A stretch of DNA of 64,000 nucleotides from Jannaschia donghaensis (GTDB taxonomy: Bacteria > Pseudomonadota > Alphaproteobacteria > Rhodobacterales > Rhodobacteraceae), in NCBI RefSeq assembly GCF_001403795.1, contig NZ_CXSU01000012.1:811568-875567 (forward strand), read 5' to 3'. Of this stretch, positions 28,719-33,653 are shown in pieces (position 1 is the first letter of the stretch; every line of letters starts with the position of its first letter). The position numbers and the translations under genes are program-made. The notes under the pieces were generated by a model. That model worked only from the letters and a program-made list of their open reading frames with translations. It ran no database searches and was not told where the DNA came from.

Positions 28719-29051
28719 TCAGAAAAGTTCCACCGACGGATCGGACGTGGTTCGGCCCCGCCCGCTCAACCGGTCACGCAGCGAAGTCTGTTGAATGCTC
28801 TCCAGAAGATCGTCGGAGATGAGGGGCTGGTCGGCGCTGGTCCGGATCGCCATCGACCCGAAAAGGGAGGCCAGATCCGCGAGTGTCTGTTGAACGGTGT
28901 CCAAAGCCTGCATGTCCTGGGCGAGCGCCACTTGGTCGGCCATCTCGATCCGGTGGCCCAATCGATCCTGCAGATCGGTCAGGGCATCGGACGCCATGCG
29001 GCATTCGTGCGCGATCCGCGTTGCAAATACTTCGGAAGACGTTCCCTTCAT
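28719..29051 (-). CDS. CheT-like small chemotaxis protein with a DXXXQ motif
   Basis: The 110-residue, almost wholly helical protein is the last gene of the chemotaxis operon, coupled to cheY by ATGA. Residues about 18-68 form two amphipathic helices, like a helical hairpin. Helix two holds D51-T-V-Q-Q55, a DXXXQ motif of the kind used by CheZ and by the rhizobial CheT to dephosphorylate CheY-P. Size and operon position match CheT of Sinorhizobium, which pairs with CheR. The 40-residue polar tail (from SADQPLISDDLLESI) is predicted to be flexible. The phosphatase role is inference from motif and context. Confidence 0.6.
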   Translation of the reverse strand: MKGTSSEVFATRIAHECRMASDALTDLQDRLGHRIEMADQVALAQDMQALDTVQQTLADLASLFGSMAIRTSADQPLISDDLLESIQQTSLRDRLSGRGRTTSDPSVELF

Positions 29052-29434
29052 AAGCGCCCGACCACCGCTTCGATGGAATCCTTGAGTTGTGGGAGTGCGA
29101 AAGGCTTGTTCAGGAAGTTATTCATTCCCAAAGACTTTCCGGTTTTGATGATCGTATCGTCGCTGCGTCCAGTAATGAGAATGAAACCGATCTTCTGCGT
29201 TTTTTCGTCTGCGCGTAGCTGTTGAAGCAGTTCAAGACCATTCATTTCAGGCATGTAAAGATCCGACAGAACTAGATGCGGACGCGTCTGACGCGCTTGC
29301 AACATGCCCGTCTTTCCGTTCTCGGCGTAGGCGACACTCGTGATGCCAAGCGCATCTAGTCCTTGCAGCAAGATCCCCCGGCTCGTCGACATGTCGTCGA
29401 CCACCAGCACTCGAAGCATGTCTCTCAAGGCCAT
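29048..29434 (-). CDS. cheY: CheY-type single-domain response regulator
   Basis: The 128-residue receiver domain has VLVVDDMSTSR (acidic pair), the phosphoacceptor Asp in LVLSDLYMPEMNG, the threonine in FILITGRS and the lysine in FLNKPF. No output domain is present, so it should act by binding the flagellar motor or as a phosphate sink. I take the ATG at 29434 (MALRDML), which overlaps cheR by ten bases. An in-frame ATG at 29419 would give a more typical CheY N-terminus. It is one of two CheYs in this operon. Confidence 0.9.
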   Translation of the reverse strand: MALRDMLRVLVVDDMSTSRGILLQGLDALGITSVAYAENGKTGMLQARQTRPHLVLSDLYMPEMNGLELLQQLRADEKTQKIGFILITGRSDDTIIKTGKSLGMNNFLNKPFALPQLKDSIEAVVGRL

Positions 29435-30294
29435 GACGGAGCAGCCCCCGTCTTGCCACGAGGACATGTTGCATCATCGGTCCGAACAAAAGCGGTCCGC
29501 CCGGCAGGACTCATCGGCGGTAGCGCCCCCAATAGTCTTTCGGAATGCCCGACCGCCAACAGGCCACCGGGGACGAGCCTGGCACGAAGCATCGCGTGAA
29601 CCGCCTCCTGTGCCGGACGGCTGAAATAGATGGTCACGTTGCGACAGAAGATTGCATCGAAGTTATCGTATCCAATCAGGGGATCGAGAAGATTGTGTTG
29701 GCGGTACTCGATCCCGATATGAAGCTCCGCAAACAGTTTCTCGGCTGTACCAGCGCGCCGGCGACCCGTAGTGGGAATACCGTCCGGCAGATCCGATAAG
29801 GCTTCGCCGAGCACCGCGACATCGATTGGAGTGCGTGCGCGTGCGATGACCGTTTCATCGACATCCGTCGCGAGGATTTTGACTTTTCGATGCCAGTCCG
29901 ATCCCAGGACGGCACGGCAGGTCGCGGCGATCGAGAGAGGTTCTTCCCCGGTGGCGCATCCTGCCGACCAAATACGGTATTTCGAATTGGAGGCATCCGT
30001 TTCGTGCGCGCCGAGGTGTGCCGCAAGAATGGCAAAGTGATGCGGTTCGCGAAACACACTGGTGACGTTCGTCGTGAGGGCTGCGATGAATTGTAAACGT
30101 TCGGCGCGACCTTCCGGGGTCTGCTCGCGGACAAGGTGGAGGTATAGACCGAAATCCTGCAAGCCGGTCATGCGTAACCGCCGTTGTAAGCGCGATGCAA
30201 CGAACGCCTGTTTGGCGGCGGGCATGTATAGCCCGGCTTCGGCCTCGGCGATCTGAGCAAATGCGCTGTAATGTCGAACATCCATCGGAATCAC
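29425..30294 (-). CDS. cheR: Chemotaxis protein methyltransferase CheR
   Basis: The 289-residue enzyme methylates glutamates of chemoreceptors using S-adenosylmethionine. The N-terminal helical domain holds LTTNVTSVFREPHHF. The Rossmann domain has YRIWSAGCATGEEPLSIA (about 106-123), ILATDVDETVIARAR, and YDNFDAIFCRNVTIYFSRPAQ, all CheR signatures. The GTG at 30294 overlaps cheW by GTGA, and an ATG at 30285 is a possible alternative. No C-terminal pentapeptide-binding extension is obvious. No CheB is present in the window. Confidence 0.94.
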   Translation of the reverse strand: MIPMDVRHYSAFAQIAEAEAGLYMPAAKQAFVASRLQRRLRMTGLQDFGLYLHLVREQTPEGRAERLQFIAALTTNVTSVFREPHHFAILAAHLGAHETDASNSKYRIWSAGCATGEEPLSIAATCRAVLGSDWHRKVKILATDVDETVIARARTPIDVAVLGEALSDLPDGIPTTGRRRAGTAEKLFAELHIGIEYRQHNLLDPLIGYDNFDAIFCRNVTIYFSRPAQEAVHAMLRARLVPGGLLAVGHSERLLGALPPMSPAGRTAFVRTDDATCPRGKTGAAPSWP

Positions 30295-30803
30295 GCGATA
30301 TGATCCTCGATGCGCGTGTCGACACGCGGCAGGATCTGGGCCGTGGCAAGGACCTGTATCATCGTATCATCGACGACGAACAGGCGTTCGGCCATGGCCT
30401 GCCCGTCGTCATTCGCCACGTGCGGCACGTCCTGTAGTTGATCGAGACGGGGATGAACGATGTCGGAGACGGCATCGACGAGCAGGCCGTGAACCCGGGT
30501 GCCGTCCTGTACGACCACGATGACGTTGCGAGGATGATCTTCGGTCCTCGACTGACCCATCCGCTGTGCAAGATCCATGACCGGCAGAACGGATCCCCTC
30601 AGATTGACCATGCCGCGCATATAGGGAGGGGCGTGGGGCAACGGGGTCGGCTCGCTCCAGCCGCGAATTTCGCGAACGCACATGATGTCGACGGCATAGG
30701 CCTGGCCACCGCACCGGAACGTCAGCAACTCCGTCGAGGGGGCTGGGGCCTCGTTTTCAGGAGGTGGAACGGAGTCGATCTGCTGGGCGTGAAGTTCGTT
30801 CAT
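30291..30803 (-). CDS. cheW: Chemotaxis coupling protein CheW
   Basis: The 170-residue CheW links receptors to CheA through its SH3-like fold. Signature stretches are LLTFRCGGQAYAVDIMCVREI, MRGMVNLRGSVLPVMDLAQR, NVIVVVQD and VHGLLVDAVSDIV. About 25 polar residues precede the domain. I chose the ATG at 30803 (MNELHAQQ) because GGAGG lies ten bases upstream and it makes an ATGA overlap with cheA. A second ATG 36 bases further upstream lies inside cheA. Confidence 0.94.
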   Translation of the reverse strand: MNELHAQQIDSVPPPENEAPAPSTELLTFRCGGQAYAVDIMCVREIRGWSEPTPLPHAPPYMRGMVNLRGSVLPVMDLAQRMGQSRTEDHPRNVIVVVQDGTRVHGLLVDAVSDIVHPRLDQLQDVPHVANDDGQAMAERLFVVDDTMIQVLATAQILPRVDTRIEDHIA

Positions 30804-32989
30804 ATCACTCTGGCCTCCGGTTGGACGGTCGGACGACATTCGTGGAACCCCGAGGAGGCCGCGATCCCGATCGGGTCGACGATGAGTGCGATCTGCCCAT
30901 CACCAAGGATCGTGGCGGCCGATACACACGGGACGTTCCCGAAATTCTCACCAAGGCCCTTGATCACGACCTGCCGCTGCGCCTCGATCGCGTCGACGCG
31001 GATCGCGAAGGGACCGCCTTCATCGGGCTCTACGAAGAGGAGGGCGGCGTCTTCTCCGGCCGTAAGGTTCTCGAGAGTTGGAAATCCCATACCGACACTC
31101 AGATCGATCATGGGAACGTAGCGATCGTGGAGTCGTGCGACCGGATGCCGTCCAGCGATATGTTCCGTACGGGCCGTGCTGAGCGTCTGGGTTTCCACAA
31201 TGACGGACAGCGGAATGACCATCCGCTGATCGTTACTTCGCACGATCATCCCGTCGAGAATGGCGAGCGTCAGCGGAAGACTGATCGAGATCTTGCATCC
31301 CTGTCCTTCGCTCGAAGCGATCGAGATTGTGCCGTTGAGGTCACGGATCGCGCGCTGCACCACATCCATGCCGACCCCCCGGCCAGACAGTGCAGACACT
31401 TCGGTCGATGTCGAAAATCCGGGCATGAACAGAAGCCTGTCGATTTCTGCAGCCTCCAATGTCTTGCCCTCGGGTATCAGGCCGCATTCCAAGGCGCGTT
31501 TGAGCACTCGGGTTCGATCGATCCCACGCCCATCGTCCGAGATCTCGATCACCACCCGGTCCGACTGTTGGCGCGCGCTCAGCCGGAGGATGCCAGCCGG
31601 TGCTTTTCCCGCGTCCATTCTTTCCTTTGGAGTCTCAAGGCCATGATCGATGGCATTGCGGATCATGTGCGTCAACGGATCTGCCAATCGTTCGACGACC
31701 GTCTTGTCGATCTCCGTCGCTTCCCCTTCCGTCTCGAGCGTCACCTGTTTTTCCGTAGCCTGCGCCGTTTCCCGAACGATCCGAGTCATCCGCTGGAACA
31801 AGGATTTCACCGGCTGCGCCCGGATCGCCATTACGCTGTCCTGCATGTCGCGGGTCAGTTGCTGCAAATCATCGAGGTTGGAAACGGCTTCGGAATGCTG
31901 ATCCAGACCCGCGCGGGTCATGCCTTGTGCGAGCATGGACTGGCTTATGACCAACTCTCCGACGAGGTTCACGAGACGATCGACACGTGCAAGATCGACC
32001 CGGATTGTTGTCGAGAATTGTCGAGGGGCCGTGGAGGGGAGGCGACCCGATGGTGCCGACGGTTCATTTCCGAGCTGAGCCACCCGGGGCGTGTCGTCGG
32101 GCAAAGGCGCTGGAAGCGACGATCCTGCGACAGGGTCCGCCGGATCGGTGATGGCGGAGACGTCACCGCTTGGCGCGCTTTCTTCGACGCAGACGATATC
32201 GAGCACACACAAATTGACGGCGAACTCAAAGACGCTTTCGATTTCGGTTTCGGTCAAGTCCGGCGCGGAGGGTGCGATGACGATCTTCCATCGCAGTCGT
32301 GGCTCCTTCGGATCCATCTCCGAAAGGGGGGGCAAGTCGGCGTCGAAAGCCTCGACTTTGAGTGGTCCCATGACTTCGAGCGCCCGGAACAGGAACAGCG
32401 GTTCGTTCCCGCTTATCAAAAGGTCCGGGAGCGGCTCGAACTGCAGGATCCATTTGCGGCAGCAATCACATGATTCTGTCGCATAACGAGGGGTTTCCGA
32501 CGCTGCGGCAGTTTCCGATCGCAAGTCGTCTGACTGATCCGACGCGGGGAACTCCAAGTCCAGCGCTAAGGGCGCGAAGGATATCTCTTCATCCACCGTC
32601 CCAGATCCATCTGCCAGATCTGACACGAGCGCCCTGAGATCCGAAGTGTCCGGCAGCACCGACTCCTCGGCGGAACGCGAAGCGGAAACGAGGTCGCCCA
32701 GCTGGTCGCTGGCGCGCAGTAGCACGGCGATGACCGCCGGGTCCGGCATCAGACGACCTGACCGCAGCGCATCAAGCGATGTCTCGAACTCATGGGCAAA
32801 TGCCACCAGAACGGCGAGGTCGAAGGCACCGGCCCCCCCCTTGATCGAATGGACGGCGCGGAAGACGGCATCGATGGTATCGACGTCCTGGTCGCCGGAC
32901 TGCAGGGCAAGGAGGCCCGACTCCAGGCTCTCCATCAGGTCTCCGCATTCCTCGAAGAACGTCGCCATGATCGCGTCGAACGGATTCAT
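30800..32989 (-). CDS. cheA: Chemotaxis histidine kinase CheA
   Basis: The 729-residue kinase has its domains in order. P1 carries the phosphoryl His47 in AVHSIKGGAGAF. A P2-like domain (about residues 175-290, WILQFEPLPDLL and EPLFLFRALEVMG) follows. Dimerisation P3 shows VDLARVDRLVNLVGELVISQS. The P4 ATPase has DPLTHMIRNAIDHGLE, DDGRGID and SGRGVGMDVV. The CheW-like P5 domain ends the protein. A cluster CDCC (174-177) at the start of P2 is unusual. The gene overlaps the preceding cheY by one base (TGATG) and cheW by ATGA. Confidence 0.95.
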   Translation of the reverse strand: MNPFDAIMATFFEECGDLMESLESGLLALQSGDQDVDTIDAVFRAVHSIKGGAGAFDLAVLVAFAHEFETSLDALRSGRLMPDPAVIAVLLRASDQLGDLVSASRSAEESVLPDTSDLRALVSDLADGSGTVDEEISFAPLALDLEFPASDQSDDLRSETAAASETPRYATESCDCCRKWILQFEPLPDLLISGNEPLFLFRALEVMGPLKVEAFDADLPPLSEMDPKEPRLRWKIVIAPSAPDLTETEIESVFEFAVNLCVLDIVCVEESAPSGDVSAITDPADPVAGSSLPAPLPDDTPRVAQLGNEPSAPSGRLPSTAPRQFSTTIRVDLARVDRLVNLVGELVISQSMLAQGMTRAGLDQHSEAVSNLDDLQQLTRDMQDSVMAIRAQPVKSLFQRMTRIVRETAQATEKQVTLETEGEATEIDKTVVERLADPLTHMIRNAIDHGLETPKERMDAGKAPAGILRLSARQQSDRVVIEISDDGRGIDRTRVLKRALECGLIPEGKTLEAAEIDRLLFMPGFSTSTEVSALSGRGVGMDVVQRAIRDLNGTISIASSEGQGCKISISLPLTLAILDGMIVRSNDQRMVIPLSVIVETQTLSTARTEHIAGRHPVARLHDRYVPMIDLSVGMGFPTLENLTAGEDAALLFVEPDEGGPFAIRVDAIEAQRQVVIKGLGENFGNVPCVSAATILGDGQIALIVDPIGIAASSGFHECRPTVQPEARVI

Positions 32990-33360
32990 CAGGTTAGACC
33001 TGTCACCGTGCGCAGGGCACCGACAAGGCGAGCGGGGTCGAAAGGTTTGACGATCCAGCCGGTCGCTCCGGCCGCCCGCGCCTTCAGTTTCAGTTCACGC
33101 GCGCCTTCAGTCGTGAGCACGAGGATTGGAATGCCGGCAAATTTGTCCTGTTTGCGGACACGGTCGATAAAGCCGAACCCGTCGAGGCGCGGCATATTCA
33201 CATCCGTCAGAATGGCGTCCGGATAAGGTTCCAGACCCTCCAGCACCTCCAGGCCATGAATACCGTCTTCGGCCAGGGTCGTCTCGATCCCCTCCCGCTC
33301 CAGCGTGAGGCGGACCATGTCACGGATGGTACGGCTGTCGTCGATCGCAAGCACCCTCAC
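32989..33360 (-). CDS. cheY: CheY-type response regulator, second copy
   Basis: The 123-residue receiver has VLAIDDSRTIRDMVRLTL, the phosphoacceptor Asp in AILTDVNMPRLDGFGF, the threonine in ILVLTTEG and the lysine in WIVKPFDP. It closely resembles the canonical CheY that sits with CheA in alphaproteobacterial clusters. The real start is the GTG at 33360, which overlaps the STAS gene stop by GTGA. The longer open frame to 33660 is an artefact of that gene. It precedes cheA and is coupled to it. Confidence 0.93.
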   Translation of the reverse strand: MRVLAIDDSRTIRDMVRLTLEREGIETTLAEDGIHGLEVLEGLEPYPDAILTDVNMPRLDGFGFIDRVRKQDKFAGIPILVLTTEGARELKLKARAAGATGWIVKPFDPARLVGALRTVTGLT

Positions 33361-33653
33361 GATGTCTTCTCTGCCGTGTGGAGACGCTCGAAGGGCACGC
33401 CCAGTGTTTTCAAGGAGGCCATGAAACCACGTGAGGCATTCGCGATGGCGAGCGTTTTGTCGTTGGACCGCTGATGGTCGCACGCCGCCATCAGAACCTG
33501 CAACGCGGATGTCATGACGACATTGACGCCGCTTGCATCCAAAATCAGGTCGCGGGTCTTTGACAGAACCATGTCGCGCAGGGCCACGGCCACGCCGATG
33601 TCCATCCGCTCCGGCAAGACAATCGTACCATCGGTTTCCGACAGATCGGTCAT
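33357..33653 (-). CDS. STAS-domain protein, first gene of the chemotaxis operon
   Basis: The 98-residue STAS domain protein is of the anti-sigma-factor-antagonist type. GTIVLPERMDIGVAVALRDM is strand one with helix one, and LILDASGVNVVMTSALQVL holds the loop where such proteins are phosphorylated (Thr48/Ser49 are candidates). STAS proteins of this kind head several Rhodobacterales and rhizobial che operons, with an unclear role that may be sensing or phosphotransfer. It starts the seven-gene unit, and a CtrA-like site lies about 70 bases upstream. Confidence 0.85.
   Translation of the reverse strand: MTDLSETDGTIVLPERMDIGVAVALRDMVLSKTRDLILDASGVNVVMTSALQVLMAACDHQRSNDKTLAIANASRGFMASLKTLGVPFERLHTAEKTS

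Follow-up and report, generated by a model that had tools for sequence, protein, structure and literature searches.

In CheZ the catalytic positions are D143 and Q147, and receiver phosphatases of the Spo0E type are small helical proteins with a Q and a D three residues apart. For CheT of S. meliloti, the primary study, by Agbekudzi et al. in 2024 (doi 10.1111/mmi.15303), reportedly names CheY1~P, the phosphate sink, as the substrate. The che cluster of this species is described as having extra Y, S, D and T genes (PMC8429497). In the account of CheT in PMC12654446, the protein enhanced dephosphorylation of only one CheY~P and formed a complex with CheR, and its AlphaFold model was said to resemble CheZ. 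A gene called cheU is placed between cheD and cheYIII in Caulobacter and Phenylobacterium (PMC2529317), and cheD, cheU and cheE have been called hardly described (PMC10579534). On the receptor side, the C-terminal pentapeptide is given as xZxxZ, where Z is F, W or Y; in pentapeptides that bind CheR, position 2 is mostly W and position 5 mostly F, with acidic residues in the remaining places (PMC7390727). The System III receptors of V. cholerae are reported to carry E-W/V-E-X-F, a possible CheR3 site (PMC11940527).

The DNA analysed here, called the window, is a stretch of 64,000 nucleotides from Jannaschia donghaensis. On its minus strand lie, in order, genes for a STAS protein, CheY1, CheA, CheW, CheR, CheY2 and a CheT-like ORF (Table 1). 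Pfam supports the other six, and all six junctions overlap (GTGA, TGATG, ATGA, GTGA, a 10-nt overlap and ATGA) with the starts of CheW and CheY2 taken at 30803 and 29434. The first-pass annotation had put this ORF at the end of a seven-gene che operon; the ORF is real, and the Pfam matches and the overlapping junctions agree with that layout. Its start overlaps the stop of cheY2 as ATGA, so that the coupling to cheY also held, but the gene had been described as standing next to cheR, and this had to be corrected: the neighbour is cheY2, and cheR is one gene farther off. A scan for promoters and terminators gave results at chance level.

Table 1. Positions, in the window, of the genes of the che operon of J. 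donghaensis and of features within the CheT-like protein.
Feature	Position	Strand	Basis or remark
CheT-like protein, 110 aa, last gene of the operon	28719..29051	(-)	ATG start
Codons of D51-T-V-Q-Q55 (DXXXQ)	28887..28901	(-)	D51 and Q55 invariant in the family
Predicted helix 2, residues 40-71, with Q48, D51, Q55 and D59	28839..28934	(-)	AlphaFold2 model and helical wheel; the four residues placed roughly opposite the hydrophobic face
C-terminal tail SVELF, residues 106-110, receptor-pentapeptide-like	28722..28736	(-)	Low pLDDT
CheY2, 128 aa, ATGA-coupled to the CheT-like gene	29048..29434	(-)	Pfam; 43% identity to S. meliloti CheY2
CheR methyltransferase	29425..30294	(-)	Pfam; 34% identity to S. 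meliloti CheR
CheW, 170 aa counted from the ATGA start	30291..30803	(-)	Pfam
CheA, with Hpt, H-kinase_dim, HATPase_c and CheW domains	30800..32989	(-)	Pfam
CheY1, 123 aa, putative favoured target of the CheT-like protein	32989..33360	(-)	Pfam; 61% identity to S. meliloti CheY1
STAS protein, CheS-like, first gene	33357..33653	(-)	Pfam; 30% identity over 77 residues to the S. meliloti STAS protein

The S. meliloti gene was reached by tblastn from a match of the class-wide search (66.9-67.8% identity), in a record labelled pSymB. The order there is globin sensor-STAS-response regulator-CheA-CheW-CheR-CheB-response regulator-CheD-cheT, then fliF, and the CheT gene is annotated 'hypothetical protein'. 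The J. donghaensis operon is thus the S. meliloti che operon minus cheB and cheD; CheW and CheA of the two operons share 44% and 42% identity. Elsewhere in the J. donghaensis genome, the sole match to the CheB methylesterase domain covers positions 1-112 of 174 and lies in a 201-aa ORF (L160:1462-2067, contig C5) in which no receiver domain was seen by eye; a canonical CheB was not found in this genome, although CheR is present.

The CheT-like protein holds a single DXXXQ, D51-T-V-Q-Q55. When its residues were shuffled, 12,834 of 20,000 sequences (64%) held at least one DXXXQ, which means that the motif in a single sequence is not evidence. Conservation was examined in a 54-row alignment (A3), J. 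donghaensis included, which was built solely from the J. donghaensis family and one other alphaproteobacterial order and uses 54 of the 62 available sequences. Those left out (L007, L009, L012, L013, L060, L067, L070 and L080; L012 duplicates L063, and the match at L070 contained a stop) also carry DXXXQ at the same site. It can be seen from A3 that D51 and Q55 are the sole invariant columns (54/54 rows) at a mean column identity of 23%. Q48 is kept in 53 of 54 rows, and E16 and L95 are likewise nearly invariant; in a 13-row alignment the invariant residues were E16, Q48, D51, Q55 and D59. The D and Q aligned with D51 and Q55 are also invariant in the rhizobial alignment A6 (25/25 rows; L125, with an over-long N-terminus and the motif present, was omitted and S. 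meliloti added), and both are present in four of four named additional members. The DXXXQ that the first-pass annotation had picked out in this 110-residue protein was therefore confirmed, and at the level of sequence it is its conservation, not its presence, that makes it meaningful. On a helical wheel D51, Q55 and Q48 point about 130-180 degrees away from the hydrophobic face; their side of the helix is not cleanly polar, since a hydrophobic residue at position 44 lies on it. A phospho-accepting histidine, by which an HPt domain would be known, was not found: the 54 rows have no invariant or near-invariant His.

Direct comparison of the J. donghaensis protein with described families gave little. 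Scans against Pfam and NCBIfam matched nothing relevant, pairwise BLAST against S. meliloti CheT was not significant (E 0.58), and NF047973, the NCBIfam CheT equivalog model with a cut-off of 200 bits, was not matched at E <= 1 or 0.1. Against the same model the S. meliloti reference scored 225.5 bits and, being over the cut-off, was identified as CheT. Profile comparison linked the two. By hhalign, A3 aligned with rhizobial CheT (S. meliloti included) over its full length (118 columns) with a probability of 99.5% and E 2.3e-23; the same-family profile A1 and profile A2 matched the rhizobial alignment A6 with 96.5% (E 7.9e-10) and 98.4% (E 6.6e-15), respectively. In the profile alignment D51 and Q55 pair with D57 and Q61 of S. 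meliloti CheT. An HMM of A3 picked S. meliloti CheT among 17 proteins at E 2.8e-14, and among 707 ORFs of the window and S. meliloti it found CheT at E 1.2e-12; besides the window ORF itself, the rest did not fall below 0.9. Of the 54 members of A3, 25 matched the independent NCBI CheT model at E <= 0.1 (best 6.3e-9), and other models matched at most one member each.

The two proteins thus share profile homology, an aligned QxxDxxxQ, the position of last che gene, an acidic-aromatic C-terminus and a similar length (124 aa in S. meliloti, 110 aa in J. donghaensis), whereas they have 11% identity over the profile alignment and part company at the curated CheT model, which misses the J. donghaensis protein. 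Because it falls outside the equivalog model, the J. donghaensis protein is to be called a divergent homologue rather than a certified CheT. Taken together, these comparisons support a fast-evolving, divergent homologue of rhizobial CheT.

The relation to CheZ is of another kind. The description of the protein as CheT-like is supported by full-length profile homology, the aligned DXXXQ and operon position; for the putative CheZ-like hairpin, sequence profiles gave no homology to CheZ and the structure model gave only matches to generic helical bundles. Neither the Pfam CheZ model (PF04344) nor those of CheC and CheX (PF04509, PF13690) matched the J. donghaensis protein, hhalign against a 13-row CheZ alignment gave probabilities of 0.4% and 0.7%, and the Pfam families listed for the 54 members at E <= 1 (25 of 52) did not include CheZ. 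Ten long CheZ rows measure 203-231 aa, against 110 aa here. What is common to both is DXXXQ, on a predicted helix in the J. donghaensis protein, and possibly the same chemistry. An AlphaFold2 model from five sequences (mean pLDDT 69.4) has helices at 6-34, 40-71 and 80-98 and a low-confidence tail, with D51 and Q55 in helix 2, where the pLDDT of blocks 41-50 and 51-60 is 81 and 80. A Foldseek search of the PDB with this model, which is of moderate confidence, gave no match at E <= 0.001, all of the 50 best rows of 254 having E >= 0.35, and VIA-align returned generic three-helix bundles (best Z 10.8, below the level usual for helical models). CheZ was absent from the best 50 rows of each, a result that is not informative on likeness to CheZ and neither bears out nor contradicts the resemblance described for the CheT model (PMC12654446). 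When the PDB was searched by sequence with A1, the 17 matches obtained were weak (best E 0.019), most of them to release factor RF2 and to helical proteins. The CheT-like protein may work like CheZ, and there is no evidence of descent from it. The spacing of Q48 and D51 resembles that of the Q and D in Spo0E-type phosphatases; the Spo0E Pfam family matched neither the J. donghaensis protein nor, among the 25 families listed, the 54 members.

A genome-wide search at E <= 0.001 found no CheZ, CheC or CheX in J. donghaensis, while the same searches were positive in control genomes. For these three families, the observation that the operon lacks CheZ or another visible phosphatase extends to the genome as a whole; beside the phosphatases searched for, the kinase itself is another possible route of CheY~P loss. 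In a class-wide sample CheZ was detected in 150 of 387 genomes, against none of the 10 carriers in which che genes lie beside the CheT-like gene (hypergeometric P 0.007, a value that ignores shared descent, five of the ten carriers being of one family).

Matches to the CheT-like protein were sought in relatives at several depths. With the single sequence, 14 of 60 genomes matched (its own included), among them 11 of 19 other genomes of the genus. A single-sequence scan of genome contigs gave no match; in a second contig scan the four named relatives were Jannaschia, and their CheT-like genes are identical in DNA to those of four of the genomes of the genus. With profiles at E <= 0.01, matches were obtained in 93 of 246 genomes of the family and, for another alphaproteobacterial order, in 67 of 200, counts in which the weakest rows may be chance. 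In the class-wide sample 20 of 387 genomes matched, ten with che genes beside the match; the other ten matches were weak and without a che operon, one having a weak receiver-like ORF nearby, and six of these genomes have CheZ. An earlier class-wide search with a 13-row profile had matched seven of 387 genomes, several without che neighbours. The absences are not firm, since scoring in each genome was confined to a limited set of first-look candidates. Tblastn of the J. donghaensis protein against plasmids gave no match, though remote members are present there. The A3 profile also matched proteins of Phaeobacter inhibens, Leisingera aquaemixtae, Tritonibacter mobilis and Komagataeibacter saccharivorans (E 1.5e-14 to 8.4e-20); in the three of these four that are annotated, two of them Rhodobacterales records, the gene is labelled 'hypothetical protein' and closes a che operon of the same type. 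No report of CheT with CheY in Rhodobacteraceae was found in the collection of papers searched. Coverage is patchy, so the gene is fast-evolving, dispensable, or both. Over 17 loci the CheT-like protein was the fastest-evolving of six operon proteins compared, with a mean identity of 26%; the corresponding values run from 42% (CheR) to 71% (CheY1).

All seven genes occur in order at 11 of 13 loci of the family, one locus lacking only a detected STAS gene and one being differently arranged. Among the best-scoring 49 loci (20 of the other order and 29 of the family, five repeating genomes already used in profile A2), the nearest detected upstream gene is CheY or CheD in 48, and the same holds for 25 of 25 rhizobial loci. 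CheY directly precedes the CheT-like gene at 28 of the 29 best family loci and six of the 20 best other-order loci, CheD at one and 13, respectively. Loci L089 and L096 of the J. donghaensis family are intermediate between these two main layouts, with cheB and cheD placed downstream of the CheT-like gene. In the other order, two or three matches occur in some genomes, and the L050 stretch holds no other detected che gene. At seven other-order loci (L045, L048, L051, L055, L056, L058 and L060) the homologue is flanked by CheD and by another CheY-like ORF. This is the place that cheU takes in Caulobacter crescentus (CC0439) and Phenylobacterium zucineum, a comparison of gene order only.

The C-termini of the family are acidic-aromatic, and 69 of 79 sequences end in F, W or Y. 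A phi-[DE]-x-[FWY] tail was found in 29 of 54 sequences of A3 and 24 of 25 of A6, the strict receptor pattern xZxxZ in five and 15, respectively; SVELF of J. donghaensis fails the strict pattern, with V at position 2. A similar acidic-aromatic tail ends 47 of 53 CheD proteins of the same loci, against one of 77 CheY2, none of 52 CheB, none of 37 CheR and none of 19 CheW. These counts come from related rows and are not independent, and they were taken from stop-to-stop ORFs, so that the ends of some CheB and CheR proteins may be in the wrong frame. The tail shared by CheD and the CheT-like protein was noted at L113 9399-9950 and L162-L174 as well. CheT-like proteins of Phaeobacter and Leisingera are without the tail, and there an adjacent receptor gene ends in a strict pentapeptide (WQDF). 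CheD tails of the type phi-[D/E]-x-F also occur in records without a CheT-like protein in the stretch examined. Restriction of the tail to CheT and alphaproteobacterial CheD was considered and rejected, because VELF-like CheD tails were found in a Vibrio and a Comamonadaceae record; among 13 CheDs examined, the tail was absent in Bacillus, Acetoanaerobium, Komagataeibacter and one R. leguminosarum plasmid. A Vibrio MCP-signal protein (L168:4593-5762), encoded in one stretch with a VELF-tailed CheD, likewise ends in GEVELF and contains LQFTDIIVQQ, with a DXXXQ, towards its C-terminus. At somewhat less than even odds, we tentatively propose that CheT-type phosphatases and CheD mimic the receptor pentapeptide, as phi-[D/E]-x-F, to dock CheR, and that Rhodobacterales would keep this link without cheB and cheD. 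No statement of a tail common to CheD and CheT was found in the literature searched, outside which the primary CheT paper falls, and novelty is not claimed.

The reading that we prefer, with a probability of roughly 0.7, is that the CheT-like protein dephosphorylates one CheY~P through D51 and Q55. The helical bundle would bind a single one of the phosphorylated CheYs; from one face of a helix, D51 and Q55 would enter the active site of the receiver as the corresponding residues of CheZ do, thus speeding the loss of phosphate and ending the signal. The favoured substrate would be CheY1~P, the CheY encoded beside cheA, and the disordered C-terminal tail would probably tie the protein to CheR. 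Catalysis, the preference for CheY1 and CheR docking are what we infer. By analogy CheY1, not the adjacent CheY2, is favoured as the better guess, because of orthology with S. meliloti CheT and the substrate reported for it. Mirror-tree distance correlations over the 17 loci do not discriminate (CheY1 0.72, CheY2 0.59, CheR 0.72, CheW 0.72, CheA 0.70).

It may be argued that the protein serves chiefly to bind CheR or as an adaptor of the array, with D51 and Q55 in a binding interface and phosphatase activity, if any, of minor effect. The complex of S. meliloti CheT with CheR (PMC12654446), the wide retention of the pentapeptide-like tail and the near-invariance of E16, Q48 and L95 are in line with this. 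However, the sole fully invariant pair is spaced as in the DLTGQ of CheZ (D-x-x-x-Q) and lies roughly opposite the hydrophobic face, and CheZ is absent from all ten che-linked carriers of the class sample; we therefore regard an adaptor as unlikely. Less probable still is a descendant of CheZ shortened past recognition: the DXXXQ on a predicted helix and the CheZ-like model described for CheT (PMC12654446) point that way, whereas the hhalign probabilities below 1% and the missing Pfam CheZ match, for the protein itself and among the families listed for its relatives, do not. That the motif arose by chance in a dispensable ORF at the end of the operon, one with no CheY-related role, would fit the frequency of DXXXQ in shuffled sequences and the rapid evolution of the protein, but such an origin is scarcely credible and is already contradicted by the conservation of D and Q in every row of A3 and A6; the operon position, too, is kept across several alphaproteobacterial families.

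If the tail of the CheT-like protein docks CheR, the reported complex of CheT with CheR would have a simple explanation; if the protein is also a phosphatase of the kind preferred here, a short linear motif shared with CheD would tie the removal of CheY~P to receptor methylation. The family brings together the Rhodobacterales ORF, rhizobial CheT and probably Caulobacter cheU. To an operon with two CheYs, in a genome where CheZ, CheC and CheX were not found, it supplies a candidate phosphatase with two invariant residues.
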